Shown here in pieces: positions 1,842 to 57,338 of a DNA stretch of 64,000 bases. The position numbers and the translations under genes are program-made. Under the pieces are notes generated by a model. It made no database searches. It saw only the letters and a program-made list of their open reading frames with translations, and had not been told where the DNA came from. This stretch comes from Microvirga ossetica (GTDB lineage Bacteria; Pseudomonadota; Alphaproteobacteria; Rhizobiales; Beijerinckiaceae), in the NCBI RefSeq assembly GCF_002741015.1, contig NZ_CP016618.1, positions 124,001 to 188,000 on the forward strand. The letters run 5' to 3'. The first letter of the stretch is position 1. Each line of letters begins with the position of its first letter.

Positions 1842-1917
1842 ATAAGGCGCCAGTGGATCGGCTGGCACTTTCACGGGAAGCAAGTGACGAGCCAGGTCGC
1901 TGCGCGGTAGGGTAGGG

Positions 1918-2505
1918 ATGCAGCCCGTGTCCTATCGCCGGAATCAAATTCCCGCCCGAGGTCATTCGGCACGCCGTATGGCTTTATCTGCGGTTCACCC
2001 TCAGCTACCGGGATGTGGAGGAACCCTGGCCGAACGTGGCTTGGAGATCTCCTATGAGACGATCCGGCGATGGGTGCTCAAGTTCGGCCCGACCTTCGCC
2101 CGTAAGCTGCGCCAGCCTGCAACCTCGGCCGAGCGATCAGTGGCACCTGGACGAGATGGTGATCTCGATTCAAGGCAGGCGCATGTACCTGTGGCGAGCC
2201 GTCGATAGCGAAGGTGAAGTCCTGGACGTCCTCGTGCAACCACGCAGAGACAAGGTTGCCGCGCTGAGGCTGATGTGAAAGCTGTTGAAGAAGCAGGGCT
2301 TGCTCCGCGCGTGCTCGTGAGCGACAAGCTGCCGTCCTATGGAGCGGCCCGAAGGGAGCTGGGTCACTCGGCTTGCCATGAGCAGTGACGGAGGAAGAAC
2401 AACAGGGCGGAGAATTCACACCAGGTGATCAGACGACGGGAACGGAAGATGCACTGCTTCAAGTCGGCTGGATCGGCTCAGCGCTTTCCCGCCGTTCACT
2501 CCGCC
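1918..2505 (+). pseudogene. IS6-family transposase pseudogene
   Basis: Pieces of one IS6 transposase are spread over three frames: YETIRRWVLKFGPTFARKLR, then DQWHLDEMVISIQGRRMYLW (a DDE catalytic segment) in another frame, then APRVLVSDKLPSYGAA, then RRRERKM and FKSAGSAQRF. Several indels and an in-frame stop near 2276 make it inactive. It is clearly diverged from the intact IS6 copy at 44.4 kb, though the motifs are the same. Confidence 0.8.
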
Positions 2506-2722
2506 AGGGCGCTGGGGGTGTCTGAGCACACCGCACCGGGTGATACGCTACGCACCCGACAGCACTATTGTGAAACAGCTAAGTTTAGAATCCTGATCAC
2601 AGTTCATAGAAGCTCACCCGTCCGGAGAGGGATGTTCCTCCGCTCAAGCTGACATGGTCGAGCCATATTGCTCCGTTGTGCTGTCCCAGTAGTGCACGTG
2701 ATACTTTTCATGAGAGGGCCTG

Positions 2723-5812: not shown

Positions 5813-6471
5813 CTCTGGAGCACCCGCATTGGCGCGGGCCAGCCCGTAGGCGTGACGGAGAATGTCGTCGCGGCAGATCTTGTCGTAGAGCCCATAGAAG
5901 CGGAAAGCGGGCTGCGCCTTCGCCTTGCAATAGAGCTTTCTCTGAAGGATCCGGGTCTTCTCAGGTGTTGCTAGACTCATCGTCAATCACCCTCCCCTCA
6001 CCATCGTCGAAAGCGCACCAGAAGTCAGGGTCCTTTGCTCCGCCGGCGTTACCCGGCCTCAGCGCTCGTATGACCCTGTCCGACTCCCGCCCTGGCCGGC
6101 GTCTTACAACACCGTTGAGGCCGCTACCCTCGCACAGAACGGGTCTCCCCCGATGACCCGCATCACCCTTCCGACGTGCCGTGCCCACGACCCCGGCGGA
6201 TCGAGCGGGTGCATGTGTCGATTGCTTCCCCGCTCGCACGGCCTTCCCCAAATGGCAGGAGGGTCGGCATCCGCATTGTCACGCTCATAGCCTGCTCAGG
6301 CTTCACTCACGTGACGGCCCACCGGATTGCTCAGCCGCCTTACAGCGACCTTTGTCACGAGGCTCCGGCCCGTCCGGTTGCCCGGCCGAACCGCTCGTCA
6401 GCGACCAGATCAATCGACAACTCTCTGGGTGGAATCTTCCTCCACTGGTGATCCGCGCCTTCGGGGCGCAC
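5813..6471 (-). mobile_element. Group II intron, 5' portion only
   Basis: On the minus strand the sequence GTGCGCCCC starting at 6471 fits the GTGYG consensus of group II intron 5' ends. About 490 bases later a maturase/reverse transcriptase gene starts, the usual distance for an ORF in domain IV. The intervening stretch is GC-rich with many short potential stems and no gene, as expected for domains I-III. The 3' part is absent: the IS5 element joins directly. The 5' boundary is inferred from the consensus only. Confidence 0.6.
5821..5980 (-). pseudogene. ltrA: Group II intron reverse transcriptase/maturase, N-terminal fragment
   Basis: MSLATPEKTRILQRKLYCKA, AFRFYGLYDKICRDDIL and AYGLARANAGAP are the conserved N-terminal segments of group II intron-encoded proteins. 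Intact proteins are about 400-600 aa; here about 50 codons remain before the IS5 end. The expected next words (GVDG...) are missing. Inactive. Confidence 0.8.
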
Positions 6472-6666
6472 TGCCAGGAACTGACCTTCGGCACCGCTAG
6501 CAAGAATGATCGGGAAAGCAAGCGCACGCTGAAGGCCTGGACTCCACGGCCAACTCCGCGTCGGCCTGATATGAGACTTCCCAATCCAATTGGTGCCAAG
6601 TTCGAATAGCTCGCCCAAGCGGTGAGCCCAGCTGGAAGGCTTCTTCCCTATCAGAACCAATCCGTC

Positions 6667-7707
6667 TCAATGTCGCCGACGGTTCTTGATGTAGCGGTCG
6701 AACGCGACCGCGCTGATGATGATGAGTCCGATGATGACCTGCTGGATATACGACGAGACGTTGTTGAGAACGAGCCCGTTGACGAGAACCCCGATCAGCG
6801 TCGCGCCGATGACGGTCCCAGCAATTGTCCCCGCGCCACCGAACAGGCTCGTTCCGCCAATTACCACGGACGCGATCACCGTCAGCTCATAGCCCTGCCC
6901 CGCTACCGCCTCCGCAGAGTTGAGGCGGGCATTGAGAACAAACCCGGCGAGGCCTGCGAAAAAACCAACTATCACGTAGACCGAGAGAATGATGCGGCTG
7001 ACCAAGATGCCGGACAGTCTTGCTGCTTCCATGTTGCCGCCGACAGCATAGACGTTTCGCCCGTAGCGGGTGTGGCGCAGCACCACGTGGCAGATGAGAG
7101 CGCATAACAGGAAGAGAATTACCGGCACGGGCACCGGCCCGATCATCCCCTGCCCCCACCAGCGGAAATCAGCGTCGAAGCCGGAGATCGGACCACCTCC
7201 AGAAAACCAGAGCGTCAGACCGCGAAAAGCAGATAGGCCTCCCAGGGTCACGACGAAGGGCGGGACCTTCAGGCGCGTGATCGTAAAGCCTTGGATGAAG
7301 CCGCACAGCACACCGATACCCACAGCCGTGAGCAGCGAGGCGAACCATCCGTAGCCAGTGACCTCATCGGAATCCAGCGAGAGAGAATTGCCTGTCGAGC
7401 CCTTAGCGACAGCGGCAGCCACAATTGCGGAGAGCGCCAGCACCGAGCCGACGGAGAGGTCGATTCCCGCAGTTAGGATCACGAACGTCATTCCCAGCGC
7501 AATGAGGCCCGTAATCGAAATCTGGCGCATCACATTGAAGAGGTTCGTGGGGTCCAGGAATCGGGGCTCTAAAGTCGCGAATACGGCCATCATCAGAAGG
7601 AGGAAGATGAGAGGGGCAAACCGGCTGAGCAGTTCCCAGGGAGACCGCTCCTTCCGGATCGGCGCTGCAGAGTTTACCTCAAAGGCCTGAGCCATCCTAC
7701 TCTCCAT
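6667..7707 (-). CDS. Sugar ABC transporter permease (RbsC-like)
   Basis: 346 aa, highly hydrophobic, with about eight or more membrane segments. It belongs to the BPD_transp_2 family of permeases for ribose, xylose or galactose: ITGLIALGMTFVILTAGIDLSVGS lies near residues 50-70 and the conserved G-x-x-L-F-G-G-A-G-T loop (ASVVIGGTSLFGGAGT) near residue 280. The N-terminal 25 residues are cytoplasmic. It is the last gene of a minus-strand operon after the ATPase (12-bp gap) and the binding protein, and forms the membrane pore of an inner-membrane importer. The substrate cannot be told from the sequence. Confidence 0.92.
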   Translation of the reverse strand: MESRMAQAFEVNSAAPIRKERSPWELLSRFAPLIFLLLMMAVFATLEPRFLDPTNLFNVMRQISITGLIALGMTFVILTAGIDLSVGSVLALSAIVAAAVAKGSTGNSLSLDSDEVTGYGWFASLLTAVGIGVLCGFIQGFTITRLKVPPFVVTLGGLSAFRGLTLWFSGGGPISGFDADFRWWGQGMIGPVPVPVILFLLCALICHVVLRHTRYGRNVYAVGGNMEAARLSGILVSRIILSVYVIVGFFAGLAGFVLNARLNSAEAVAGQGYELTVIASVVIGGTSLFGGAGTIAGTVIGATLIGVLVNGLVLNNVSSYIQQVIIGLIIISAVAFDRYIKNRRRH

Positions 7708-7719
7708 GAATCCATGCTC

Positions 7720-9285
7720 TCAACCGGGTGCCTGATCACGGTGGACCAAGGGTTGGTCGAGTGTCATCAGGGTCATCAGCCGCTCTTGCGTCGCCTCGTC
7801 GGCCCGGATCTCCCCTGTGATCCGCCCTTCCCGCATCGTGACGATCCGGTCGGAGATGGCGAGTATCTCAGGCAATTCAGACGAGATGACCACGATGGCG
7901 ATGCCGTTGGCGGCCAGCCTATCCAGAAGCTCGTGTACCTCTGCCTTCGCCGCAACATCGATACCTCGTGTTGGCTCGTCGACAAGGAGCACCTTGGGCT
8001 TCACTGAAAGCCAGCGTGCCAGCACGACCTTCTGCTGGTTGCCGCCCGACAAATTCGAGATGGGCTGCTCCGGGCTCCTCATGCGAATGTTCATCGAACC
8101 GCGGAACTGTTGCAGGGCCGCCTGCTCCTTGCGTTCATCGACAAAGATACCCGCACGCAGGAAATGGCCCAGGGACGCAATGGAAAAATTGCTTCTGATG
8201 GCCTGCTGCAGAAAAAGCGCCTGCTGCTTGCGATCCTCTGGCACGAGTCCGATTCCAAGACGGATGGCATCGCTTGGGGAGCGGATCTTGACAGGTTCCC
8301 CGTCTATTGCGATTGTCCCTGCGGCAGGCGGATCTGCGCCGAAGATCGCTCGCGCCATTTCCGTTCGCCCTGATCCGACCAAACCTGCAACGCCTAGAAT
8401 CTCTCCCGCGCGCACATCGAGATCGACGTCTCGCAGCTTGATCGCCTGTGCCCGCGCGGCCTCGGTGCACAGTCCTCGAACGCTCAGGCGGACGGCCCCG
8501 CCCGCATGCCTTGTCGCTGGACGCCTGTAGAGCTCTGACGCCGCACGCCCGACCATGAGCTCGATCACGGCGGCCGTTGTGAGATCCTTGCGATCTCGTG
8601 TGGCAGCGAGCTTTCCGTCACGCAGGATCGTGAACCTATCGCAGACCGTCATCGCCTCTTCGAGACGATGGGTCACAAACATGATAGACACGCCCTCTTG
8701 GCGCAAGGCCCTCATGATCCCGAGAAGGCGCTTGACCTCCGCCTCCGACAGCGCAGAGGTCGGCTCGTCCATGATGATGAGCCGGGCTTTGATCGAGAGC
8801 CCGCGGGCAATCTCGACCAACTGCTGCTCGGCTACGGAGAGTTCCGCGACCGGAATATCAGGGTCGATGTCCAGCCCCACCCGTCTGGTAATAGCCTGCG
8901 CCTCGATCCGCATTCGCTTCCAATCGACCAGGCCTCCCAGCCGCAGCGGCTCGCGGCGGATGAAGATATTCTCCGCGACGCTCAGTTGTGGAATGAGGTT
9001 CAGTTCTTGATAGATTGTCACGATGCCAGCATCCTGGGCAGCCTGCGGGGTCGGGACGGCGATCTCCCGCCCATCCCATAGAATGCTTCCGGCATCGGGA
9101 GCCTGAGCGCCCGAGATGATTCTCAGGAGCGTGGACTTACCCGCACCATTCTCGCCCAGTAGGCCATGGACTTCACCATAGGCTACTGAGAGCGACACCC
9201 CATCGAGCGCGGTGACGCCCGGAAATCGTTTCGTGACATCGCGGATCCGAAGAAGAGGCGAGAAGTCATCCATGGCGGAGTTCAC
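7720..9285 (-). CDS. Sugar ABC transporter ATP-binding protein (RbsA/MglA-like)
   Basis: 521 aa with two tandem ABC domains, as in RbsA, MglA and XylG. Domain 1 has Walker A GENGAGKST (about residue 41), a signature LSVAEQQLVEIARGL and Walker B LIIMDEPTSAL. Domain 2 has a degenerate Walker A, GLVGSGRTE, typical of this subfamily, then LSGGNQQKVVLARWL and VLLVDEPTRGIDV. It energises the import of a monosaccharide together with the adjacent permease and the periplasmic protein encoded just upstream (42-bp gap). Confidence 0.95.
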   Translation of the reverse strand: MNSAMDDFSPLLRIRDVTKRFPGVTALDGVSLSVAYGEVHGLLGENGAGKSTLLRIISGAQAPDAGSILWDGREIAVPTPQAAQDAGIVTIYQELNLIPQLSVAENIFIRREPLRLGGLVDWKRMRIEAQAITRRVGLDIDPDIPVAELSVAEQQLVEIARGLSIKARLIIMDEPTSALSEAEVKRLLGIMRALRQEGVSIMFVTHRLEEAMTVCDRFTILRDGKLAATRDRKDLTTAAVIELMVGRAASELYRRPATRHAGGAVRLSVRGLCTEAARAQAIKLRDVDLDVRAGEILGVAGLVGSGRTEMARAIFGADPPAAGTIAIDGEPVKIRSPSDAIRLGIGLVPEDRKQQALFLQQAIRSNFSIASLGHFLRAGIFVDERKEQAALQQFRGSMNIRMRSPEQPISNLSGGNQQKVVLARWLSVKPKVLLVDEPTRGIDVAAKAEVHELLDRLAANGIAIVVISSELPEILAISDRIVTMREGRITGEIRADEATQERLMTLMTLDQPLVHRDQAPG

Positions 9286-9327
9286 ACGGAAGTCGGCCGG
9301 TCTGGCTTGGAACCAGCCCGGCCACCG

Positions 9328-10296
9328 CTACGACACTTCCGAGATGCGTTCCGCCTTGTTGACGTTCTCTTTGGTGATCGCCACCGGCGTGATGAGCTTC
9401 ACTTGCGTGTCCGGCTTCTTGCTGTCACGCGCGTAGGAGACCGCGATCCTCATCGCCTCGCGGCTCTGCTCGCCGGGGAACTGTTCAATCGTGGCGGCCA
9501 TCTGCCCGGCGCGGATCGCCTTTAAAGCTTCGGGCAGAGCATCAAAGCCGTAGATGGCAATGCCGCTGAGATTGCGGGCCTTGACAGCCTCCATCGCGCC
9601 CAGCGCCATATCATCGTTGGCGCAGACGATCACGTCCGGCTTGCCCTTACCAGCAAGGCCTGCCTCCGTCACTGAAAGCCCTTCCGCCCGAGCGAAATTG
9701 GCCGTCTGCTCAAAGACGATCTGATACTTGTCCTTTGCCTTGTCGAGGACGTTGTGCAGGCCCTTGTTGCGGTCGATGGCAGGTCCAGCACCAGGTTGTC
9801 CCTGCAAGTGGAAGATCTTAGCCCCATTGGGAAACGCTCTCATGATAGCTTCGGCCTGAGCTTCACCGCCCTTCACGTTGTCGGCGCCCACATGGGCGAG
9901 GATGCCGGACACGCCACGAACCTGACGGTCGATGGTTACCACAGGAATGCCAGCCTTCACCGCCTGTTCGAGGGCGGGCGCCATTGCGTTCACCTCCAGG
10001 GGCGAAATGACGATCGCATTGACCTTCTGAGTGATAGCAGCCTCGACATCGGCGGTCTGCTTGGGGACCGAGTTCTGTCCATCAGTCTCGATTAGTCGGA
10101 TGTCGCCAAGCGACTTCGCCTCCGCCTGCAACTGGCGCTGCATGTGGACGAAGAACGGGAAGGATAGGCTTGGAAGAGATGTCGCGATTACAAGCGATTT
10201 CGCCTGAGCGAAGGCAATCCGCCCTCCAGCGGCGGCCCCGAGGACAAGACTGGCGGTAGAAGTCACAAAGTTTCGCCGAGTCAACAGAATGGACAT
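9328..10296 (-). CDS. Periplasmic sugar-binding protein (RbsB-like)
   Basis: 322 aa. The N-terminus MSILLTRRNFVTSTASLVLG has a twin-arginine-like or strong Sec signal with a likely cleavage after IAFAQA. The rest is a type I periplasmic binding fold (Peripla_BP_4): ITQKVNAIVISPLEVNA, GIPVVTIDRQV, and PDVIVCANDDMALGAMEAVK are characteristic. The start has GGAGGAAGAGG just upstream. It is the first gene of the three-gene importer operon. No catabolic enzyme or regulator is adjacent, so the ligand is unknown; ribose- or xylose-like sugars are the best guess. Confidence 0.93.
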   Translation of the reverse strand: MSILLTRRNFVTSTASLVLGAAAGGRIAFAQAKSLVIATSLPSLSFPFFVHMQRQLQAEAKSLGDIRLIETDGQNSVPKQTADVEAAITQKVNAIVISPLEVNAMAPALEQAVKAGIPVVTIDRQVRGVSGILAHVGADNVKGGEAQAEAIMRAFPNGAKIFHLQGQPGAGPAIDRNKGLHNVLDKAKDKYQIVFEQTANFARAEGLSVTEAGLAGKGKPDVIVCANDDMALGAMEAVKARNLSGIAIYGFDALPEALKAIRAGQMAATIEQFPGEQSREAMRIAVSYARDSKKPDTQVKLITPVAITKENVNKAERISEVS

Positions 10297-10324
10297 GCCT
10301 CTTCCTCCCGTGAGCTTGGCCTTG

Positions 10325-10432
10325 TGGCCAATTTTGCCGACTATAACGCCAACTGAGAGTTCGCCCCAGACTATAAAGAGTCTGGCCGACGAACCGACGA
10401 ATAAAAAGGTATAATTTTGGGAGAATTGGCCA
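10325..10432 (-). promoter_or_regulatory. Candidate control region of the first sugar importer
   Basis: Upstream of the binding-protein gene, TGGCCAATT (10325-10333) is repeated inverted as AATTGGCCA (10424-10432). Between them lies a hairpin-like dyad, CAGACT (10367-10372) with AGTCTG (10379-10384), and the word GACTATAA occurs twice. This looks like an operator-bearing promoter region; the binding factor is not encoded nearby. Confidence 0.4.
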
Positions 10433-10481
10433 GCCCGCTTATCTAGATTAGCGATAGTCAGGGCTCGGATGGATACCGCCT

Positions 10482-10529
10482 GTGACGTGAGCCCTGCGAA
10501 TTCCTCCAGATGAGGTTAGAGTCCGTCCA
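10482..10529 (-). repeat. IS3-type element terminus, copy 1
   Basis: This 48-base stretch is about 85 percent identical to 51490-51537. It lies about 50 bases beyond the stop of an IS3-like transposase remnant, the right place for the element's 3' end (the minus strand ends in GGGCTCACGTCA). No left end was found nearby. Confidence 0.5.
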
Positions 10530-10581
10530 ACGCTGCGCTGAGCCCCTTGCTTGGACCACCCGAGGCTAGAGTTTTCCGTCC

Positions 10582-10690
10582 TTGATCAAGGCGACGGGCT
10601 GGCTGCGTCGCCCGATTTCGTCAGCACAGTCGGGGGCTTATTCCCGATCGCGCCATGGGGCCGTTCCTCGTTGTACAACGAGGTTTGAGA
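10582..10690 (-). pseudogene. IS3-family transposase (OrfB), C-terminal remnant
   Basis: The minus strand reads LYNEERPHGAIGNKPPTVL then TKSGDAASPSP and a stop, the usual end of IS3-family integrase-type transposases (YNxxRPHxxLG). Upstream, only about ten further codons stay open and the resemblance is lost. Confidence 0.65.
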
Positions 10691-10810
10691 ACGCCCACAG
10701 GACCATTCGCCGTGAAGTTCTGTATTGGCTTCACCCCAGCGTGCTTGAAACACCCCTGACCTCCCGCTTGTTCAGGCCTGCGTCTGCGAGCCGAGCCAGA
10801 ACGCCTCGAG

Positions 10811-15237: not shown

Positions 15238-15344
15238 GATAGCAAGCCTTGCTCAGATGGGTTTGTAGTAGCGCAGCCACCTCGTGAACGCGAAAGCTGC
15301 GCCGACGGAGCAGAACAACGCAGATCCTGCTCCGTGCGCGGGGG

Positions 15345-39236: not shown

Positions 39237-39260
39237 TGCCACTAACGATCCTGAGCCGAC

Positions 39261-40313: not shown

Positions 40314-40515
40314 GGGGAGGGGTTCTTAAGCTTGCACAAAATCCTGTAAAGGGGTTCGTAATCTGCAGGATTGGGCCTCAATTTTCAGCAGTCCTCAAGC
40401 TGGCGCGTCGTCGTGCACTGCCTCGTCCGTATGTGGCTTCACTCAGGATGAAGGGCTATGGCATGGCCGGCATTGGTGCGACGAGCTGAGTTCTTGCTGG
40501 CTGGACGGCCGTCGG

Positions 40516-47119: not shown

Positions 47120-50100
47120 ATGCTGGGATTGCTCGACATCCGAGTTCTCGGGGATTTCCACGTTGGCCGGGATGGTATACCGATCGGTCTGCCTCCTTCG
47201 AAGAAGACACGGGCGCTTCTGGCCTACCTGGCTGTCACTGGCCGATCTCACCGCCGCGAGCGACTGTGTGAGCTGTTCTGGGATGTCCCCGACGATCCGC
47301 GCGGCGCATTGCGGTGGAGCCTCTCAAAGATGCGCCAGATCCTGGGCCGCGGCTCCGAGACGTGCCTCATAGCTGACCGGAATACTGTCACTCTCACGCC
47401 TGACGCAATAAAGCTGGATTTCGCCCGCGTTGGAACGCTGCATAAAGATGATCTGAGCTCCCGCGAGACTGCTGAACTCGAGGAGATGGCAACACTGTAC
47501 CGCGGCGGGTTCCTAGCAGATCTCTCCTTACCGCGCTGTCCCGATTTCGAGGCTTGGCGGATCGCCCTAGCCAACGAGGTCGACCTCGGAAGAATCCGCC
47601 TTCTCCAGGAGTTGATCTGTCGCTTCGCAGAAGTGCCGGAGCGCGCACTTCCCTATGGCCATGCCCTTCAAAGCATCGTCTCTCAGAATAGTCAGGTCGC
47701 CAAACAGGTCGAGGCTCTCGGCGAGGCCGCTCTTCAAAGCGTCCTAAAGCCAAATGCTGTAATCGCTCCAGGCGCAGCTATCGAGGCACAAACTCATGTT
47801 AGCGATCACGAGATCGTGCACAGTGATCAGACGATAACACCAACGCCCATGACTCCTGTTGCAACGGACGAGACGCGCAAGCAAGTCAGTGTCCTGGTGG
47901 TGGAGATCGTCATTCCGCTCTTAGCCCGTGACGACACGGACCCAGAGGTCTTCCTCGAGGCCATCGAGCCTTTGCTCGACCTTGCCACCAATGTTGTCGA
48001 GCAGAGGGGTGGCATCATTGTCACTCGCGGACAGGCTGATCTGACCGCGATCTTTGGAGCCGTGGCACCAGTAGAGGATCATGCTCTCCAGGCTGCCCAG
48101 ACGGCTCTCGCTGTGAGCCGGGCCATACAGCATCTTGCCGACCAAGCGACGCAGGTCAAAGCGGCGACTGATACCGGCGAGGCGATTGTGCGCACTCGCA
48201 CGCTCCCTCAGGGATCACGGGTTGAAGTGAACGGCCCACCAGTTCGTGTGGCTCAACGGTTGGCGCAAGCTTTAAGACACGAGATCATCGTAGCGACCGC
48301 GAGAACGCGCGAGGCAACCGGCGGCTTTCTGATCATGGAGTCGCTTGACGCCTCCGCTGATTTGTCCCCGGAGCGCGAACAGCAGGTCTACAGGGTCGTC
48401 GGAGAAAACCAAGCTCTGTCACGGTGGCAGCTTCGGGCTGGTCAAAGGCTGACACCTCTGATCGGACGTGCGGCGGAACTGCGTACCATCTGCCAGGCAT
48501 GGCAACGTGCGCAACGAGGGCAGGGCCAGGTTGTTGGTCTTGTCGCCGGGCCCGGGTTGGGCAAATCCCGGCTCGCGCACGAGTTTGTGGCCCGTCAACA
48601 GGACAAAGGAGCCGTCGTGCTCGAGAGTGGAGCGCTGGAGGCTGACAGCAATGCTAGCTTCATCGTTCTTAAAAGACTGCTCCACAGCCTACTCGGCGTC
48701 GGCGCCGGTGCGCCGGCCGAGGCGGTAGCCGCCAAGCTTACCACTCGCCTCCGGGAACGAGGCGCCGAGGCGCGCGTCTTATCGCCCCTGCTGTTCGTGC
48801 TCGATCTCCCGATCGAGGATCGGGAATGGATTGTGCTTTCAGCTGCCGATCGCGCCAGACGGGCCCGGGATGCGACCGCAGTGCTTCTGTCTTTGGAGGC
48901 GCAACAACAGCCAATTGTCGTTCTGATTGAGGATTTACATTGGGTCGACCCCGAGAGTGAAGCCGCCATCACGCGAATTGTGGCGAGCATCAGCCACCAG
49001 CCAATTCTGCTGCTGGCGACCTATCGGCCGGAGTACCGACACGATTGGCTCCAGAGAGGCAGCTTCCTCCAAGTGGGGCTTGATCAGCTGGAACCAGGCA
49101 ACGTGGATGCATTCCTGCGCAGCCTGATTGGGGATGATCCAAGTGTTTCCCACTTAATCCCGCTAGTTGCAGAGCGGACAGGAGGCATTCCCCTGTTCAT
49201 GGAGGAGGTGGTTCGGTCCTTGGTTCAGAGTGGCCAACTCGTGGGGCCGCCGGGGAGCTATTCCGCCCAAGAGGCGATCACCAAGCTTGATGTGCCCGCC
49301 ACTGTGCAATCCGTCATTGCCGCTCGGATCGGGCAACTCCAGGAACGAGACCGGTGGGCACTGCAGATTGCGGCGGTCATCGGGCGAGAGATCCCGGTCG
49401 ACCTGCTCGGCCAGATCACCGGGTTCGATCACAGGCAGCTCGAAAGTAGCCTGACCTGTCTCCAGAGAGCAGGATTCATCAGCGAAAAGCAGGTGTTCCC
49501 GGCTGGCGTCTATATCTTCAGGCACTCCCTGATCGAGGACGTGGCGTACCGGAGTCTGGTGGGTTCAACGAGGCGTGGCATCCACGGCCGTGTTCTGGAG
49601 TTGATGGAGATAGACCATGCTGAGCACCTTGGAGAGATCCTGGAAAGCTTGAGCGAGCATGCTGTCAGGGCCGAGAGCTGGACCAAGGCTGTCGATTATC
49701 TTCTGCGTGCAGCGCGCCGGGCTCTGCAACGATCTGCTCATCAGACAGCCCTGGCGTTTCTTCGTCGGGGCTTGGAGATCGCGGCGCGGTGGCCGGAGAC
49801 AGCAGAGCGATTCCGGATCGAACTTCAGTACCAGGAAACCTGCGGCGTCGCCTGGATGGCTGCCAAGGGTTGGGGTGCCCGTGAGGTGTCGGAGGCCTAT
49901 GAACGGGCTGAGGCGCTCTGCCATCTGCTTGATGACAGGGCGGAGCTGTTTACCATTCTGCGTGGCCGGGCGCAGTACTACATGATCAGCGGGCAGCCCA
50001 AATCTGCCCAGAAGATTGCCGAGAAATGCGCAGAGACAAGTCTGGGTTCACCGGACAACGGAGTGGCCATCGAAACCCACCATATGTTCTGGACGAACGG

Positions 50101-50965
50101 CTTCTTCATGGGCGACTATGCGACGGCCGGAGCACACGCAGAGCACGCTATCGGGCGGTACCAGCCCGAGAGAGATCATTCCTTAACCTTTCAGTACTCG
50201 GGCCATGACCCAGGCGTCTGCAGTCGCTGCATGTCCGGCCTCGTCCTCTGGCAGCAGGGCCACCTTGAACGCGCAACAATCAGATGCACAGAGGCCATGC
50301 AACTGGCGGAGAAGCTCGCGCATCCTCTGACGACCGCACTGGCCTATTGGGGTATGAGTTACCTGCACATATTCCGGCGCGAACCCGATCTTGCCCTGTT
50401 ATGGGCCGAGCGAGAGATTGAGGTCTGTGATGAGTACATGCTGCCGCTTCTGCGGTCCCAGGGCGTCTTCCAGGTGGGGTGGGCTACAGCGCAGCTTGGC
50501 GAACTGGATCTGGGCATCGAGCAGATGGAACAGGGAGTTCAAGCCATCCGGGCGACCGGCGCCGAGATGGGACTTCCCTACTTCCTGGGCTTGCTCGGAG
50601 AAACCTATAGCACTGCGCGGGAGACAGGGAAGGCACTTGCGACGATCGGAGCAGCCATCAAGAGCGCAGAGCAAAACGGTGCTAGATTTCAGCTGTCGGA
50701 GCTGTTGCGCATGCGAGCTCACGCCCTGGCCAGAGGCCGGTATAGCAACTCCGACGAGATCGAGCGGACTTTCCGGACCGCGATCGAGTCAGCCCGAAGT
50801 CAGGGAGCCCTCATGCCTGAGCTTCGCGCGGCCACCAGCCTTGCCGGATATCTTACCGAGACAGAGAGGCGGTCAGAGGCGCGCGAGCTTCTCCGATCTT
50901 ATGGCGATTTCATCAGAGCTACTCCGGGATGCACCGATATCGATGCCGCGGCTGAACTGCTTTGA
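47120..50965 (+). CDS. Large AfsR/SARP-like regulator: wHTH-BTAD, degenerate cyclase, AAA ATPase, TPR
   Basis: 1281 aa. Residues 1-100 are an OmpR-type winged helix (IRVLGDFHVGRDG, RERLCELFW, LRWSLSKMRQIL), followed to about 230 by a BTAD-like helical part. Residues 250-420 resemble a class III cyclase beginning (RKQVSVLVVEI...), but the metal-binding Asp residues are lost (VEI for ADL, TRGQADLTAIFGA for GDGxMALFGA). Residues 450-750 form an AAA/NACHT-like ATPase: AGPGLGKSRLAHEF and VVLIEDLHWVDPESE. The rest is TPR-like helical repeats. Such proteins are signal-dependent transcription activators; the target is unknown. It stands alone. Confidence 0.85.
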   Translation: MLGLLDIRVLGDFHVGRDGIPIGLPPSKKTRALLAYLAVTGRSHRRERLCELFWDVPDDPRGALRWSLSKMRQILGRGSETCLIADRNTVTLTPDAIKLDFARVGTLHKDDLSSRETAELEEMATLYRGGFLADLSLPRCPDFEAWRIALANEVDLGRIRLLQELICRFAEVPERALPYGHALQSIVSQNSQVAKQVEALGEAALQSVLKPNAVIAPGAAIEAQTHVSDHEIVHSDQTITPTPMTPVATDETRKQVSVLVVEIVIPLLARDDTDPEVFLEAIEPLLDLATNVVEQRGGIIVTRGQADLTAIFGAVAPVEDHALQAAQTALAVSRAIQHLADQATQVKAATDTGEAIVRTRTLPQGSRVEVNGPPVRVAQRLAQALRHEIIVATARTREATGGFLIMESLDASADLSPEREQQVYRVVGENQALSRWQLRAGQRLTPLIGRAAELRTICQAWQRAQRGQGQVVGLVAGPGLGKSRLAHEFVARQQDKGAVVLESGALEADSNASFIVLKRLLHSLLGVGAGAPAEAVAAKLTTRLRERGAEARVLSPLLFVLDLPIEDREWIVLSAADRARRARDATAVLLSLEAQQQPIVVLIEDLHWVDPESEAAITRIVASISHQPILLLATYRPEYRHDWLQRGSFLQVGLDQLEPGNVDAFLRSLIGDDPSVSHLIPLVAERTGGIPLFMEEVVRSLVQSGQLVGPPGSYSAQEAITKLDVPATVQSVIAARIGQLQERDRWALQIAAVIGREIPVDLLGQITGFDHRQLESSLTCLQRAGFISEKQVFPAGVYIFRHSLIEDVAYRSLVGSTRRGIHGRVLELMEIDHAEHLGEILESLSEHAVRAESWTKAVDYLLRAARRALQRSAHQTALAFLRRGLEIAARWPETAERFRIELQYQETCGVAWMAAKGWGAREVSEAYERAEALCHLLDDRAELFTILRGRAQYYMISGQPKSAQKIAEKCAETSLGSPDNGVAIETHHMFWTNGFFMGDYATAGAHAEHAIGRYQPERDHSLTFQYSGHDPGVCSRCMSGLVLWQQGHLERATIRCTEAMQLAEKLAHPLTTALAYWGMSYLHIFRREPDLALLWAEREIEVCDEYMLPLLRSQGVFQVGWATAQLGELDLGIEQMEQGVQAIRATGAEMGLPYFLGLLGETYSTARETGKALATIGAAIKSAEQNGARFQLSELLRMRAHALARGRYSNSDEIERTFRTAIESARSQGALMPELRAATSLAGYLTETERRSEARELLRSYGDFIRATPGCTDIDAAAELL

Positions 50966-51090
50966 TTTGTTTGGCCCGACTGAATGCTCGAGATATGACG
51001 CTTTGGCTTGCCTTAAAAGGGTGAGGCAGGAAAGCTTGAGCAAAGGTCGCGTCACTCACTCCTGCGCCCGGCTCGTGGCAATGCCCAGAG

Positions 51091-51321
51091 TCAGGCCGGG
51101 ATGCGCCCCAGCGTGACGACGAAGTACTCGCGAAAGCAGAAGTCCGGATAATCGAACAAGCGATCCGGATCCGCCGCGGCGACATTCAATGCCTCGCAAT
51201 CGGTTGGCGAGAGACTGTGCTCCGCTGCGGGCTTTGCATGATAGCAAAGCCCCATGGCGATGAACTCGCGCGTGTGGGTTGGCAGTGGTGCCCAACGTTC
51301 CACGAGCCAACCCTTACGCAT
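51091..51321 (-). CDS. Small hypothetical protein
   Basis: 76 aa (MRKGWLVERWAPLPTHTREF onward, ending FVVTLGRIPA). Natural-looking composition with aromatic and acidic residues (DRLFDYPDFCFREYF). No strong ribosome site. It lies in the gap between the regulator and the cox cluster. No family recognised. Confidence 0.45.
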   Translation of the reverse strand: MRKGWLVERWAPLPTHTREFIAMGLCYHAKPAAEHSLSPTDCEALNVAAADPDRLFDYPDFCFREYFVVTLGRIPA

Positions 51322-51489
51322 GATGTCCGTCAGTCCCGCGTGCCGGAAGAAGGCGGGCTAGCGAGGGCTAGCGAGGATCCGCACCACGCGCCCAGCACCC
51401 CAGTCTCGGCTGCCTTGGCTCGGCGTGCCGCAACCTGACGGGCCTTAATAGCTGGGTCCAGCGGTAGCAATTGTAGGAGCGTCCCGTCA

Positions 51490-51538
51490 GTGATGTGAGC
51501 CCTGGGAACTCCTCCGGAAGAGGTTACAGTCCGTCCAG
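51490..51538 (-). repeat. IS3-type element terminus, copy 2
   Basis: Close copy of 10482-10529 in the same orientation (shared words GTGAGCCCTG, CTCC, GAGGTTA, AGTCCGTCCA). No transposase remains beside it, so it is a solo end left by deletion or an excised element. Confidence 0.5.
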
Positions 51539-51575
51539 CTCAGCTCACAGCCGGGAAGGGCTGAGCTTCGGGGAA

Positions 51576-51812
51576 CTATCGCTTAGGAGCTTTCCGGGCT
51601 GCGTCTTCCATCCCTTGCGGGTTCTTCTCGACTCCCTCCTGGAGCACCTTCGCGGCGGCGTCCTGTTCCTGCTCCAGAGGCGCGGAGATCGGCGCGGTGT
51701 CGCCGCGGGCTTCAAGACCTTGCTCCTGCGGCTTCCGACTTCCCGCCTTCGCGGCGGATTTCAGGGAGCGTAGAGCCTCTGGCTGCTGACCATCCTGCAT
51801 GCGATCGGGCAT
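51576..51812 (-). CDS. Charged hypothetical protein
   Basis: 78 aa from MPDRMQDGQQPEALRSLKSA. AGGAG lies ten bases before the ATG. It is rich in Ala, Glu, Lys and Gln and probably helical or disordered, ending in a basic KAPKR. No family recognised. An in-frame upstream start at 51929 is less likely. Confidence 0.45.
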   Translation of the reverse strand: MPDRMQDGQQPEALRSLKSAAKAGSRKPQEQGLEARGDTAPISAPLEQEQDAAAKVLQEGVEKNPQGMEDAARKAPKR

Positions 51813-51950
51813 CGGGCGAACTCCTGCTAAGGCGGCTTCGTCGTCATCTCCCAAGGGGAATTCCTGGCGCGGCGAGGCGTTCCATCCTGAGCGCGTCCGG
51901 ACAGCGAAGTCACCCACGCTCAGTGTCATCCTTGCGAATCGTGTTCACGC

Positions 51951-53171
51951 TCACGACGCCCGCAGCCACTGGCGTGGATTGGCTCGCTCGGCCAGATCGC
52001 CGGACAGGGCCCGGCAGAGCTCCTCCATAGACGCTAGGTTGTGAATAGAGCGGAACTCATCCGCATAAGGCAGCATCGCCCGGATGCCGGAGGCGCGAGC
52101 CTCGAAAGCGTCGAACCGAAGAAGCGGATTCAGCCATATAAGACGGCGGCAGGAGCGCTTGAGCCGGTCCATCTCAAACGTCAGTTCCGGCGTCACTTCC
52201 CGTTCGAGGCCGTCCGTGAAGAGCAGGACGATAGCACCCTGACCGAGCACCCGGCGGGACCAATGGCGGTTGAAGTCGTGCAGCGCATGCGCGATGCGCG
52301 TTCCGCCTTCCCAGTCCTGTACGCGCTTCGAGGCGCGGGCCAGGGCCTCATCAGGATCACGGCTCGTCAGTTCGCGACTGATATTGGTCAGGCGCGTGGC
52401 AAAGACGAAGGAGTGAACTCTTCGTCTCTTCTCGGCAATGGTATGCAGGAAGTGCAGGAAGAGCCGGGAATAGTCTGCCATGGAGCCTGAGATGTCCATG
52501 AGCGCCACCATCGGCGCATGGCGCATTGCGGGGGTGCGATAGGCCAAGTCGATCGCGGCCCCGCCGCCGCGCAGCGACCGCCGGAACGTCCTGCGTGGAT
52601 CGATCTGGCGGCCTCGCGGATCCGACACGAAGCGGCGCGTGATCACTTCGTCGTCCGGCAGGGACATGTCGGCAATCAGGCGCTTGGCCACAGCGATCTC
52701 GGCGGCCGACATCTGCGCGAAATCCCTCGCCTTCAGAACCTCACGGTCTGAGACGGTGAGGCGGGCGGAGAATTCGGTCTTCTCGACCGGCTCCGGCTTC
52801 TCCTGCCGGGGCGAGGCCAATGCTTCGGCTACGCGCAGAGCACCAGCCTGCGGCTTCTTCTCCTCCTTGGCCCCGCCGGGAGTGATCGGCGACATCTGAG
52901 CGATGAGCTTCTCGATCAGTGCGCGCCGCTGCCAGAAGATCCTGAAGGCTTGGTCGAACAGGATGCTGTGCTCATGCCGCTTCACGAAGATCGCATGAAG
53001 CGTCCAGTAAAAGTCCTCGCGCGGGCCGATCCGCGCCACCTCGACCGCCGCAATGGCATCGAGAACCGCGCCAGGGCCGACCGGCAGACCTGCGGCCCGT
53101 AAGGCCCGCGCGAAATAGGCGATGTTGTCCGCAAGGCGACCTTCACCCTGGCGGGCAGATCCGTCGGTCAC
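51951..53171 (-). CDS. coxE: VWA-domain protein CoxE
   Basis: 406 aa. An N-terminal helical region precedes a von Willebrand A domain with the metal-ion site VALMDISGSMADYSRL (about 240) and the later TDGLEREVTPEL. This is the VWA_CoxE family (DUF58/VWA), partner of the MoxR ATPase. Its start overlaps coxD (ATGA). With CoxD it is thought to assemble the copper-sulfur-molybdenum or related active site. Last gene of the minus-strand operon. Confidence 0.9.
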   Translation of the reverse strand: MTDGSARQGEGRLADNIAYFARALRAAGLPVGPGAVLDAIAAVEVARIGPREDFYWTLHAIFVKRHEHSILFDQAFRIFWQRRALIEKLIAQMSPITPGGAKEEKKPQAGALRVAEALASPRQEKPEPVEKTEFSARLTVSDREVLKARDFAQMSAAEIAVAKRLIADMSLPDDEVITRRFVSDPRGRQIDPRRTFRRSLRGGGAAIDLAYRTPAMRHAPMVALMDISGSMADYSRLFLHFLHTIAEKRRRVHSFVFATRLTNISRELTSRDPDEALARASKRVQDWEGGTRIAHALHDFNRHWSRRVLGQGAIVLLFTDGLEREVTPELTFEMDRLKRSCRRLIWLNPLLRFDAFEARASGIRAMLPYADEFRSIHNLASMEELCRALSGDLAERANPRQWLRAS

Positions 53172-54130
53172 TCGGGTACCCTCAGCATGCTCTGAAGCCG
53201 ATCGAGCATGGCCTTGGTCCCGCTGCCCTGCATCTTCTGGATGTCATCCTGGTATTTCAACAGAACGCCGAGCGTGTCCGAGACCAGCGCCGGGTCGAGC
53301 GCAACCGCATCGAGTTCCACGAGGGCCGATGCCCAGTCGAGGGTTTCGGCCACGCCCGGTGCCTTGAACAGATCCTCCTTTCGGATTGCCTGAACGAAGG
53401 CGACGATCTCCTGCGACAAGCGCTCGGCGGCCTGCGGAACACGGCTTGTGAGGATGGCGAGCTCTCGCTCTGCGCCCGGGTAATCGACCCAATGATAGAG
53501 GCAGCGGCGCTTGAGCGCGTCATGAATCTCGCGGGTGCGGTTCGACGTGATGATGACAATGGGAGGATGCTCAGTCTTGACCGTGCCGAGTTCCGGTATG
53601 GTGACCTGGAAGTCTGAGAGCACCTCCAGAAGAAAGGCCTCGAAGGCCTCGTCCGTGCGGTCGAGTTCGTCGATCAGGAGAACCGGTGCTCCGGCGGTGT
53701 CGGGCTCAAGAGCCTGCAGGAGCGGCCGCTTCACCAGATAGCGTTCCGAGAACAGGTCGCTCTCTAATGTGTCGCGGTCCACCGTCCCGCCGGCCTCGGC
53801 CAACCGGATGGCCATCATCTGCCCGGCATAGTTCCATTCGTAGACGGCTGAGGCGACATCAAGGCCCTCGTAGCATTGCAGGCGAATGAGGCGGCGTCCT
53901 AGCGCAGACGCGAGCACTTTCGCGATCTCAGTCTTGCCGACGCCGGCTTCTCCTTCAAGAAAGAGTGGGCGTCCGAGCTTCAGCGCGAGAAAGAGCACCG
54001 TCGCGAGCGGGCGGTCGGCCACATAGCCTGCACTCTCAAGCAGCGCCAAGGTGCTGTCGATGGAACCGGGTTGGTCGGCCACGAGCTGTGCTGCTCCATA
54101 GGGTAGGGCGCCCGGGCAGAGCCCGGGCAT
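53168..54130 (-). CDS. coxD: MoxR-type AAA+ ATPase CoxD
   Basis: 320 aa from MPGLCPGALPYGAAQLV. A longer frame starting at 54235 would overlap coxM and is rejected. Walker A GEAGVGKTEIAKVLASAL and Walker B APVLLIDELDRTDEAFEAF; the sensor IIVITSNRTREIHDAL fits as well. MoxR ATPases remodel cofactor-containing enzymes; CoxD is needed for maturing the CO-dehydrogenase active site. Coupled to coxE by ATGA. Confidence 0.93.
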   Translation of the reverse strand: MPGLCPGALPYGAAQLVADQPGSIDSTLALLESAGYVADRPLATVLFLALKLGRPLFLEGEAGVGKTEIAKVLASALGRRLIRLQCYEGLDVASAVYEWNYAGQMMAIRLAEAGGTVDRDTLESDLFSERYLVKRPLLQALEPDTAGAPVLLIDELDRTDEAFEAFLLEVLSDFQVTIPELGTVKTEHPPIVIITSNRTREIHDALKRRCLYHWVDYPGAERELAILTSRVPQAAERLSQEIVAFVQAIRKEDLFKAPGVAETLDWASALVELDAVALDPALVSDTLGVLLKYQDDIQKMQGSGTKAMLDRLQSMLRVPE

Positions 54131-54158
54131 TGAGTCAACGTCGTTCTGGTCTGGCTGT

Positions 54159-54962
54159 TCAGCTCCGCGCGGCCGCCTGCACGGCCCTGCGGGCCATGAC
54201 GCCGACGAGGTGAGCCCGATAGGCGGCATCCGCATGGATGTCGCTGTTCATCTCGTCCTCGGCCACGGCAATGCCGTCGAGAGCCTCGGGCGCAAAGTTC
54301 CCGCTTAAGGCCTGCTCCATCTCCGGCACGCGGAACACGCCGTTCGATCCCGCTCCTGTCACGGCGACACGCACGCCATCCGCATGCTTCGCCACGAAGA
54401 CGCCGACAAGGGCGTAGCGCGAGGCCGGGTTGCGGAACTTGGTGTAGGCTGCCTGTGAGGGGACCGGGAACGACACCTGGGTGATGATCTCGCTTTCCTC
54501 TAGAGCCGTTGTGAAGATGCCCTGGAAGAAGTCGTCGGCCGCGATCTTCCGCTGGTTGGTGATGATCGTTGCGTTCAAGGCAAGACAGGCGGCAGGATAA
54601 TCAGCGGAGGGATCATTGTTGGCGATGGAGCCGCCGATGGTGCCGCGGTTGCGCACATGCGGATCGCCGATGAGCTCGGCCATCTCGGCAAGAGCCGGAA
54701 TGGCCTCCTTCACCTCGGCTGAATTGGCGACCTCCGCATGCTTCATCATGGCCCCGATGGTGATCGTGTCGCCGGAGCGTTCGATACCGCGAAGCTCCGC
54801 GATCTGGCCGAGATCAATCAGGTTCGCCGGACCTGCGAGCCGCAGTTTCATGGTCGGCAGCAGCGTATGCCCGCCAGCAAGGAACTTGGCGTCCTCCGCT
54901 TGGCCAGCGAGGTTTGCTGCTTCCTTGACGCTTGTAGGGTGGTGGTATTCGAAAGCGTACAT
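54159..54962 (-). CDS. coxM: CO-dehydrogenase-type FAD subunit CoxM
   Basis: 267 aa, slightly short for the family (about 285). FAD-binding words: KFLAGGHTLLPTMKLRLAG (about 28) and NRGTIGGSIANNDPSADYPA (about 108). The C-terminal CO_deh_flav_C domain is present. It passes electrons from the Fe-S clusters to quinone. Between coxL (12-bp gap) and coxD (28-bp gap) in the operon. Confidence 0.93.
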   Translation of the reverse strand: MYAFEYHHPTSVKEAANLAGQAEDAKFLAGGHTLLPTMKLRLAGPANLIDLGQIAELRGIERSGDTITIGAMMKHAEVANSAEVKEAIPALAEMAELIGDPHVRNRGTIGGSIANNDPSADYPAACLALNATIITNQRKIAADDFFQGIFTTALEESEIITQVSFPVPSQAAYTKFRNPASRYALVGVFVAKHADGVRVAVTGAGSNGVFRVPEMEQALSGNFAPEALDGIAVAEDEMNSDIHADAAYRAHLVGVMARRAVQAAARS

Positions 54963-54974
54963 TTCCGTCCTCCC

Positions 54975-57338
54975 TTATTCCGCCGCCATGGGCATGCGTG
55001 CCTTCTGGGCCGCCCGCCACACCGCCTGAGGCGTCGCCGGCATGGCAATGTCCTCATGGCCGAGGGCATCGGTAATCGCGTTGATGACGGCCGGCGGGGC
55101 CGCGATGGCGCCGGCTTCGCCGCAGCCCTTGATCCCGAGCGGGTTCGAAGGGCAGGGGGTCATCGTCATGCCGACCTGGAAGGACGGAAGATCGATGGCA
55201 CGCGGCATGCAGTAGTCGTTGAAGCTGGCCGTGATGAGCTGGCCGCTTTCGTCATAGTAGGCACCTTCGAGGAGCGCCTGACCGATGCCCTGGGCGATGC
55301 CGCCATGAACCTGGCCTTCGACGATCATCGGGTTGATGATCACCCCGAAATCGTCCACTGCCGTCCAGCGCTCGATCTTGGTCACGCCGGTATCCGGATC
55401 GATCTCCACCTCGCAGATATGGACCCCGGCCGGGAAGGTGAAGTTAGTGGGATCGTAGAAAGCTCCCTCCTTCAAGCCGGGCTCCAGATCCTGGCCCGAG
55501 AACTTGTGGGCGATGTAAGCCTGAAGCGCCACTTCGCCGAAGGCCAGCGAGCGGTCGGTGCCGGCCACGCCGAACCTCCCGTCCTTAAACTCGATATCGC
55601 CCTCGGATGCCTCGAGCACATGGGCGGCCACCTTCTTGCCCTTCGCAATCACCTTGTCGAGGGCCTTGGCAATGGCAGACATGCCGACGGCACCGGAGCG
55701 CGAGCCGTAGGTGCCCATGCCGAATTGCACCTTATCGGTGTCGCCGTGGACGATGCTGACCTGATCGATGGAAATGCCGAGCCGGTCCGACACGAGTTGG
55801 GCGAACGTGGTCTCGTGGCCCTGGCCATGACTGTGCGAGCCCGTGAGCACCTCGACGGAGCCGGTCGGGTTGACGCGCACTTCGGCCGATTCCCATAGGC
55901 CTACGCCCGCACCGAGAGAGCCGACTGCCTGCGAGGGAGCGATACCGCAGGCTTCGATGTAGCTCGAGAAGCCGATGCCCCGCAGCTTGCCGCGGCGGGC
56001 GCTTTCCTGCTTTCTTGCCGAGAAGCCCTTGTAGTCGGCAATCTCCAGGGCCTTGTCGAGCGAGGCGGCATAGTCGCCCGTATCATAAGTCATGATGACC
56101 GGGGTCGCATGCGGGAACTGCGTGATGTAGTTCCTGCGGCGGAACTCGGCCGGGTCCCGGCCCAGTTCGCGCGCGGTCTTCTCGACGAGACGCTCGACCA
56201 CGAACGTGGCCTCGGGGCGGCCCGCGCCGCGATAGGCATCGACGGGCGCGGTGTTCGTATAGATCCCGTCGACCTCGCAGTAGATTGCCGGAATGTCGTA
56301 CTGGCCCGACAGGAGCGGGGCGTAGAGATAGGTCGGCACTGAGGAGGAGAAGGTGGAGAGATAAGCGCCGAGATTGGCTGTGGTGTGAACCCTGAGACCG
56401 ATGATCTTGCCGCTTTCGTCGGTTGCCATCTCCGCATGGGTGACGTGATCGCGGCCATGCGCGTCGGACAGGAAGGCTTCCGAGCGATCCGACGTCCACT
56501 TGACCGGGCGCTTGACCTTCTTCGCCGCCCAGACACAAACCGTCTCTTCCGCATAGATGAAGATCTTGGAGCCGAACCCGCCGCCGACGTCCGGCGCGAT
56601 GACGCGCAGCTTGTGCTCGGGCGCGACGCCGATGAAGGCCGAGAGCACAAGGCGGGCTACGTGCGGGTTCTGGCTTGTCGTGTAGAGCGTGTAGTTGTCG
56701 GTCCCGAGATCGAATTCGCCGACGGCCGCGCGCGGCTCGATGGGGTTCGGCACCAGCCGGTTGTTGATGAGGTCGATCTTGGTCACGTGCTTCGCCCGCG
56801 CGAAAGCCGCTTCCGTTTCGTCCTTGTTGCCGAGATGCCAGTTGAACACGGTGTTGTCGGGCGAGACGTCATGCACCTGGACCGGTGCTTTCGTCGCCTG
56901 GGCTGTGTCGACAACAGCCGGGAGCACGTCGTAGTCGACCACGATGGCTTCCGCCGCGTCCTTCGCCTGGGCGAGCGTCTCGGCGATCACCACCGCCACG
57001 TGGTCGCCCACATAGCGCACCTTGCCCTGAGCAAGCGCCGGGTGCGGCCCTGCCTTCATCGGGCTGCCATCCTTGGAATGGATCATCCAGCCGCAGATGA
57101 GTCCGCCGATCTTGTCGGCTGCGAGGTCGTCGCCCGTGAAGACGGCGATCACGCCCGGCATGATCATCGCCGGTCCCGTGTCGATGGACCGGATCGCCGC
57201 GTGGGCATGCGGCGAGCGGAGGAAATACGCGTAGGCCTGGCCAGGTCGGTTGAAGTCGTCAACGTAGCGTCCCTGGCCGGTGACGAAACGCTGATCCTCT
57301 TTCCGGCGGACGGGTGCGCCGATCCCTGTTGCGGTCAT
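54975..57338 (-). CDS. coxL: CO-dehydrogenase-type molybdenum subunit, form II CoxL
   Basis: 787 aa, full length. It carries [18 protein letters not shown] at the N-terminus, [16 protein letters not shown] (about 265), the active-site loop [14 protein letters not shown] (about 367), [15 protein letters not shown] and the C-terminal [19 protein letters not shown] with the catalytic Glu. The loop reads AYRGAGR, the form II signature, not the AYxCSFR of form I enzymes that oxidise CO efficiently. The true substrate is therefore open; other aldehydes or heterocycles are possible. Confidence 0.92.

Follow-up and report, generated by a model that had tools for sequence, protein, structure and literature searches.

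Polarity of a KOPS-like octamer reverses beside repAB and again at a dif-like site on a secondary replicon of Microvirga ossetica

Introduction

On large bacterial replicons, including pSymA and pSymB of S. meliloti, the octamer GGGNAGGG is described as polarised from origin to dif and as inverting at dif (PMC13342612); an organisation of large replicons around dif and FtsK orienting polar sequences (KOPS) has been described for Agrobacterium (PMC12153318). Here we analyse the same octamer on a secondary replicon of Microvirga ossetica. The starting point was a stretch of 64,000 nucleotides, positions 124001-188000 of contig NZ_CP016618.1 (hereafter the window; the contig is C3 in our numbering), in which an earlier reading, made from the letters alone, had noticed that the octamer changes strand beside an array of parS-like palindromes and the partition genes repA and repB. 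The reversal of polarity is real, and the interpretation then placed upon it – KOPS pointing away from an origin – is supported so far as sequence can tell.

C3 has the GGGNAGGG polarity and the inversion at dif of the replicons already on record (PMC13342612), and the core system is thus of a known kind. It differs in that repC is detached from the switch, while the available parts of that account mention neither a density peak at the origin nor Microvirga. A search of literature listings returned no description of an origin-centred KOPS peak, figures and supplements lying outside its reach. An origin-centred cluster, a detached repC and a plasmid-type dif together make the C3 system a variant.

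KOPS are also termed a subclass of architecture imparting sequences (AIMS), whose abundance and strand bias climb toward the terminus (PMC5993296); the octamers studied here resemble AIMS in being polar and in lying on leading strands. The partition locus is of the Rhizobiales repABC style (PMC9040568): repA and repB are both there, and parS-like palindromes precede repA. In such plasmids oriV is placed within repC, a gene that a figure legend of the same paper gives as absent in some cases, saying no more there; on C3 repC lies 139 kb outside the operon.

Octamer polarity across the window and the replicon

The genome comprises 9,631,051 bases in six contigs: the chromosome C1 (5,843,140), C2 (1,343,367), C3 (712,299), C4 (977,332), C5 (593,709) and C6 (161,204). 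Octamers were mapped over the whole of C3, C4, C5 and C6, over 320 kb of C2 and over 100 kb of C1, and these scopes hold for all polarity maps below. All 23 octamers named in the sequence-only reading were located in the window, 22 at the coordinate given and one at 37102 rather than 37103. Eleven lie on the minus strand and 12 on the plus strand: 11 minus-strand copies are followed by 11 plus-strand copies of GGGNAGGG, and, as had been claimed, a single copy (1910, plus strand) breaks the rule. With random strands and one free switch, agreement of at least 22 of 23 copies has P ~1.3e-4. The arrangement is as follows.

1910..1917, plus strand: lone wrong-pointing octamer (sequence count)
5990..15593, minus strand: left-arm octamers beyond the cluster, at 5990, 6893, 7148, 7825 and 15586 (sequence count)
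35536..37855, minus strand: dense cluster, left half, GGGNAGGG at 35536, 36411, 37102, 37444, 37449 and 37848 (count and cluster statistics)
37856..40313, no strand: polarity gap, the octamer-free divergence point of the replicon-wide bias (octamer map)
40314..44173, plus strand: dense cluster, right half, GGGNAGGG at 40314, 40630, 41097, 43676, 43791, 43796 and 44166 (count and cluster statistics)
48518..55157, plus strand: right-arm octamers past the 44.2-kb edge, at 48518, 51553, 54101 and 55150 (sequence count)
38004..40972, no strand: seven parS-like palindromes, ATTGTAAGCTTACAAT or one pair off, at 38004, 38082, 39220, 40517, 40747, 40811 and 40957 (palindrome scan)
41219..42502, plus strand: repA, ParA-type ATPase; longest-ORF (open reading frame) start, the gene possibly beginning further inside (Pfam AAA_31)
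42502..43521, plus strand: repB, ParB-type with RepB domain (Pfam RepB, ParB_N)

Counted on both strands over all of C3 (71 forward and 50 reverse copies), GGGNAGGG has its cumulative minimum at 161848-164314, which is 37848-40314 of the window, and its maximum at the contig junction. A two-switch fit placed the switches at that same interval and at 710370-712460, across the junction, and scored 83, the best of 300 strand shuffles reaching 55; the bias spans the whole replicon. The switch proposed at 37.9-40.3 kb of the window is thereby recovered from the complete replicon, together with its co-location with the palindrome array (38004-40972) and repAB (repA from 41219). The second switch that was to be sought elsewhere also exists, and a dif-like site lies there, at 711747. 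On C3 the bias continues beyond the window, with one switch at repAB and parS and the other at this site, and neither of the outcomes named beforehand as refuting the reading was observed. When 8 kb on either side of the switch are left out, 108 copies remain, and 89 of them are directed from the switch toward the dif-like site.

Two-switch fits exceed the shuffle maximum on C4 (81 vs 51), C5 (66 vs 58) and C6 (48 vs 42) as well, and far copies run from switch to dif in 112 of 157, 76 of 97 and 45 of 56 cases, respectively. Four control octamers on the same four replicons rose above shuffles in one of 16 tests, with one further tie. For the reversed octamer GGGANGGG, whose copies overlap GGGNAGGG in runs such as GGGGAGGGG, the best-fitting switch on C3, C4 and C5 falls close to that of GGGNAGGG. 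Genome-wide, enrichment of the octamer is moderate (2206 copies vs 1776 of the reversed pattern).

The switch stands beside repB on C3 (161848-164314; repB domain at 167006), C4 (291510-293433; 296215), C5 (396976-399345; 394845, minus strand) and C6 (151792-152514; 151984, minus strand), and on C2 the octamer minimum at 45044-45937 accompanies a minus-strand repB at 42155. On the chromosome polarity flips at ~2.713-2.73 Mb, in 60 kb around the parS matches (29 copies). Starts of CCCTNCCC and GGGNAGGG recur 13 bp apart on C1, at 2718450/2718463, 2737263/2737276, 2753580/2753593 and 5823273/5823286. These pairs are apparently part of a repeated hairpin element, which would confound KOPS counts on the chromosome.

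A dense outward cluster at repAB

The cluster was taken as all copies lying no more than 8 kb from the switch, with centres placed from the octamer positions themselves. Per 16 kb it holds 13 copies on C3, 14 on C4, 15 on C2, 13 on C5 and 16 on C6, where a third-order Markov model expects 2.2-5.5; the next-best 16-kb window tested on the same stretch holds 9, 9, 4, 8 and 12, in the same order. Across the five replicons 67 of these 71 copies point outward. Their density, ~0.8-1.0 per kb, compares with ~0.23 per kb genome-wide (2206 in 9.63 Mb) and is about twice that of the 60 kb around the chromosomal flip. Over the same distance from the switch, GGGNAGGG is also the most polar of all octamers with a single inner gap (67 outward, 4 inward, five replicons), in a scan that is not fully blind because the centres had been preset from octamer positions.

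For other genomes the centre was fixed at the repA start minus 1 kb, and 80 RepA loci, the best 80 of 546 confirmed, were surveyed. Thirteen of them are repAB loci of Microvirga (genomes in GTDB), and these carry 139 outward and 6 inward copies, at 0.91 per kb near the centre and 0.22 per kb far from it.

dif-like sites, Xer genes and FtsK proteins

A scan with a dif core, followed by an exact pattern search of the genome, identified the site TATTCGCATAA-N6-TTTTGACAAGA. It occurs once each on C3 (711747-711774), C4 (717162), C5 (311678) and C6 (120449), and the exact pattern is absent from C1. Octamers converge at 710370-712460, 718542-718619, 311134-313075 and 115328-118586, respectively; that is, polarity inverts at most ~2 kb from the dif-like site on C3, C4 and C5 and at most ~5 kb from it on C6. 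The same pattern is present at 49 places in 22 of 41 Microvirga genomes, M. ossetica included, and a reversed control gave zero.

Like the dif sites described for Proteobacteria (PMC2731167), these are 28-bp sites of 11-6-11 form, and the central regions, which are there distinct between the chromosomes of one species, here mostly differ between replicons (GGAGAC on C3 and at one C2 site, then GCGCAC, GGATAA, CAAACG and CATTCA). The plasmid sites depart from that pattern in keeping the left arm while having TTTTGACAAGA as the right. A chromosomal dif-type site, ATTTCGCATAAGATATATTATGGAACTT, lies at 7187 on C1, where octamers converge at ~5.8 kb; by our own comparison 26 of its 28 positions agree with the dif that PMC2731167 lists for A. 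tumefaciens. Plasmid and chromosomal sites have the left arm CGCATAA in common and differ in the right: the XerD-side arm TTATGGAACTT of Rhizobiales chromosomal dif is found in the C1 site and not in the plasmid sites.

A XerD-like frame begins 48 bp beyond the searched core on C3, C5 and at the first of two C2 sites. The gene (317 aa) is intact on C5 and interrupted on C3 and at the first C2 site, with intact close copies at 1064 kb on C2 and 310 kb on C3; the C4 and C6 sites showed no such gene. Its product falls below both the XerD and the XerC equivalog cut-offs, and tyrosine recombinase matches besides it include two on C1, at 46% and 36%.

Other genes crowd the same sites. A gene for a 432-aa helix-turn-helix (HTH) protein adjoins the dif-like sites on C4 and C1, its end lying near the left arm; the flank on C4 recurs at the first C2 site. 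The protein, for which Pfam returned helix-turn-helix matches only, is probably a transposase. Insertion next to Xer sites is known for some insertion sequences (IS), and the position of this gene near the left arm is a candidate likeness to the IS1202 family (PMC10132070). A near-identical 4.2-kb stretch (C3 ~707.6-711.7 kb; 96.6-99.9%) abuts the site on C3, C5 and C6, and also the second C2 site (978 kb), over the 1.5 kb compared. It encodes a 768-aa protein with a Phage_integrase domain and looks like a mobile element that targets dif-like sites.

FtsK_gamma matches number five, two on C1, one on C3 and two on C4; those borne by the secondary replicons are listed here.

C3 651593-654403: FtsK-gamma gene (FtsK_gamma match)
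C4 693408-696152: FtsK-gamma gene (FtsK_gamma match)
C4 434171-437686: FtsK-gamma gene (FtsK_gamma match)

The C3 protein (936 aa) has alpha, motor and gamma domains. For it and for the C4 proteins (914 aa and a 1171-aa frame), start codons being predicted, the Kyte-Doolittle maximum is 1.52 with no window above 1.6, so that a membrane segment is not evident; a Phyllobacterium plasmid FtsK has one window above 1.6. Five of 17 other plasmids encode a gamma domain, the copy on pMVF16-5 lying 3.6 kb from its dif-like site. The C3 gamma domain matches six solved FtsK sequences, including 2j5p and 2ve8/2ve9, of which 2ve9 contains KOPS DNA. The gamma domain would presumably read GGGNAGGG in Microvirga. 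The earlier proposal of a large secondary replicon with FtsK guidance thus gains support from the replicon-wide bias, the dif-like site at the opposite switch and a C3 FtsK with a gamma domain.

Detached repC and GC skew

RP-C matches number seven genome-wide: beside repB on C6, at 306 kb on C3, 748 kb on C4, 146 and 333 kb on C5, and 743 and 1103 kb on C2; none is chromosomal. C6 has the classical arrangement, with repC directly beside repB. On C3 repC is not directly downstream in the operon (306 kb vs 167 kb for repB), and it is repAB, not repC, that the switch tracks on C3, C4 and C5. A diverged repC hidden beside repAB was sought with tblastn, using four RepC queries over 18 kb around repAB of C3, C4, C2 and C5, which gave weak matches only (lowest E 0.13), and on these four queries the idea was discarded. 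Eleven of the 13 Microvirga repAB loci have at least 4.5 kb downstream, and in nine of these 11 repC is absent within 6 kb. At three loci of Methylobacterium, Methylorubrum and Rhizobium lemnae (L234, L235, L240) a RepC-like match lies ~1.1-1.4 kb upstream, not downstream, of repA.

Standalone repC genes often, though not always, lie ~20-36 kb from a dif-like site (C2 743 kb, C4 748 kb, C5 333 kb, and plasmids of M. lotononidis and Microvirga VF16). Where the length of the replicon is known, seven of nine sites have repC within 36 kb (expected 1.7, P ~1e-4), a threshold chosen post hoc, with the classical C6 as one of the seven. Five further sites in few-contig genomes have repC at ~35, 106, 118 and 141 kb and ~1.0 Mb, giving eight of 14 combined. 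On C2, C4 and C5 one repC each lies 22-31 kb from a dif-like site; C3 repC, 307 kb away, is an exception.

GC skew has its minimum at 168 kb on C3, with repB ~1 kb and the octamer switch 4-6 kb away; on C3, C4 (297 kb) and C5 (396 kb) the minimum is at most 2 kb from repB. On C3 the polarity switch and the skew minimum are both at repAB and not at repC.

Interpretation

We consider it likely that the octamers are KOPS and that C3 is a secondary replicon with its centromere, and most likely its origin, at repAB, from which FtsK is sent outward to dif. The centromere (parS array plus repAB) and the most likely replication origin would lie at 37.8-44.2 kb of the window. KOPS on both arms would steer FtsK-type translocases, the host FtsK and probably also the FtsK-gamma protein of C3 itself, from this locus to 711747-711774, where Xer recombinases would resolve dimers. 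The dense outward cluster could be a polarity guard or a loading zone: a motor that lands near the partition complex would, we propose, be sent outward at once and so could not drag the centromere to the septum. At the level of sequence the case comprises the replicon-wide bias, the switch at repAB, the opposite dif-like site, the cluster, the split of repAB from repC, and the FtsK-gamma and XerD-like genes. From these we infer that C3 is circular, that replication starts at repAB with RepC acting from a distance, and what the cluster is for. The sequence-only reading had a probable origin at the switch. The bias holds over the whole replicon, and the placement of the switch at repAB and parS stands; what the switch marks directly is the partition locus, and since repC, the expected initiator and carrier of oriV, is 139 kb off, a replication origin at this point is inferred.

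A number of observations weigh against this interpretation. The RepC on C3 passes the NCBIfam RepABC_RepC equivalog cut-off (210 vs 150 bits), and were C3 a classical replicon, oriV would lie there, at 306 kb. GC skew, proposed earlier as a check, does place the C3 minimum near the switch and lends weak support to an origin at repAB; but the fit barely beats the maximum of 100 shuffles (3510 vs 3284 on C3, 3845 vs 3835 on C4), is not significant on C5 and C6, has a C6 minimum (128 kb) that misses repABC, and yields termini that miss the dif-like site on C3 (57 kb), C5 (539 kb) and C6 (40 kb), agreeing with it on C4 (710 kb) only. The arms of C3 are very unequal (168 vs 545 kb), and of the 157 octamers far from the switch on C4, 45 run against the expected direction. 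Equally scoring dif candidates of another form exist at 348402 on C3 and 118548 on C6, and C2 has two exact dif-like sites (771019 and 978349). The R that follows GYNRAA in the E. coli gamma domain is S in the C3 alignment. As to density, octamers are few around dif (3, 7, 4 and 9 per 16 kb on C3, C4, C5 and C6), and on these replicons abundance and bias peak at the repAB switch and not at the terminus, the reverse of what is described for AIMS (PMC5993296). Control G-rich octamers are themselves raised 1.5-4 fold near repAB on three Microvirga plasmids. Beyond the genus, the 67 remaining loci show 0.44 per kb near vs 0.28 per kb far (315 outward, 64 inward), and among 17 plasmids compared those of S. 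meliloti (pSymB), R. leguminosarum, A. vitis, B. guangzhouense and Thioclava have no dense outward cluster; pSymB of S. meliloti AK57 (2 outward, 2 inward) was left out of this set, its repA being at the end of the record.

If the octamers were ordinary KOPS, the peak at repAB might mean no more than that the repAB backbone is the oldest resident DNA, amid recent acquisitions without KOPS, and the cluster would have no special role. The low density and lesser bias of far copies (89 of 108 on C3, 112 of 157 on C4) and the recent insertions around dif fit such a history, which we regard as possible if unlikely: at ~0.8-1.0 per kb the cluster is several times denser than the genome at ~0.23 and about twice as dense as the chromosomal flip region, so that loss elsewhere would not suffice, and it tops every other tested 16-kb window on the five replicons. 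Polarity might instead follow parS, because FtsK must clear the partition complex, with oriV in or near the detached repC. The placement of oriV inside repC in repABC plasmids (PMC9040568) speaks for this; so does the presence of at least one RP-C match on each of the five repAB contigs and of none of the seven on the chromosome, as does the fact that, of the two loci, repAB/parS alone coincides with the switch. We nevertheless find it doubtful, given that on C3 and C4 the skew minimum, though weak, favours repAB over repC in its position and that one repC each on C2, C4 and C5 lies 22-31 kb from a dif-like site, near the presumed terminus.

It is improbable that the octamer is a different G-rich polar motif, such as AGGGGAGGGG, serving a replication or SMC-loading factor and merely resembling KOPS. 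Near copies do have G as fourth base in 38 of 71 cases and a preceding A in 69%, against 28% and 43% in far concordant copies, and other G-rich octamers are raised near repAB on Microvirga plasmids and several others; yet among copies away from the cluster GGGGAGGG is again the most polar version (91 to 11), and GGGCAGGG shows polarity near the switch (20 to 1) as well as far from it (152 to 46). A G-rich octamer is to be expected often on a replicon of 61% GC, but chance or base composition has next to no standing as the cause after the strand shuffles on four replicons, the control octamers (1 of 16), the Markov expectation (2.2-5.5 vs 13-16) and the recurrence of the pattern in other genomes.

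Returning to KOPS sent outward from repAB, four fully mapped secondary replicons and part of a fifth in one cell have the layout of a small chromosome, from partition locus to dif-like site. With repC and repAB far apart, they provide a natural test of whether the replication origin or the centromere sets KOPS polarity. An origin-centred KOPS peak would contradict the terminus-centred gradient of AIMS and call for a function near the partition complex. A more far-reaching and rather speculative idea, to which we give little credence, is that Microvirga megaplasmids are a distinct replicon type with a divided repABC, having repAB, parS and origin at one end, repC often near the terminus, and a cluster of KOPS loading soluble FtsK that sweeps both arms to dif. 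They would carry a plasmid-specific resolution kit comprising a hybrid dif, whose right arm is its own and whose spacers mostly differ from replicon to replicon, a XerD-like recombinase and FtsK-gamma motors without membrane segments. Should plasmid FtsK, XerD-like gene and hybrid dif indeed cooperate, large plasmids would bring their own segregation machinery.

Neighbouring features

Palindrome arrays upstream of repA are replicon-specific: ATTGTAAGCTTACAAT seven times on C3, ATTGCCCGCGGGCAAT four times on C2, GGTCAGCTGACC five times on C4 and four GTTTGCAGCTGCAAAC-like copies on C5; a scan for arrays of parS type on C6 gave none. Set against the parS consensus GTTNNNNGCNNNNAAC, the C3 copies fit TT..GC..AA with the outermost pair mostly A/T, and three of the four C5 copies fit fully. 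The nearest match of RepA among plasmid records is from Microvirga, at 71%. Four further features lie in or beside the cluster.

36402..37318, plus strand: serine resolvase homologue, two overlapping ORFs, interrupted (Pfam Resolvase in the first ORF; C4/C5 comparison)
39276..40274, minus strand: IS630-type transposase gene within the polarity gap (Pfam DDE_3, HTH_Tnp_IS630)
43745..44150, plus strand: post-repB element without a long ORF, containing AGGGGAGGGGAGGG (cross-replicon comparison)
44439..45149, plus strand: IS6/IS240-type transposase gene, right of the cluster (Pfam DDE_Tnp_IS240)

Inverted repeats of the IS630-type element are at 39260-39284 and 40290-40314, and uninterrupted homologues of the resolvase, 302 and 319 aa, are encoded on C4 and C5. 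The element at 43745-44150 occupies the position expected of repC and shares 77.7% identity with its C4 counterpart (297234-297639); a catalogued RNA is not the explanation, for Rfam gave no match up to E 1 over 34000-48000 of the window. Copies of the first ~100 bp of the element stand next to repAB on C2 and, on C4 and C5, next to the resolvase. These copies (C4 289668-289772, C2 41314-41413, C5 401020-401143) occur on both flanks of repAB, partly inverted and adjoining the serine resolvase, and are possibly res-type sites.

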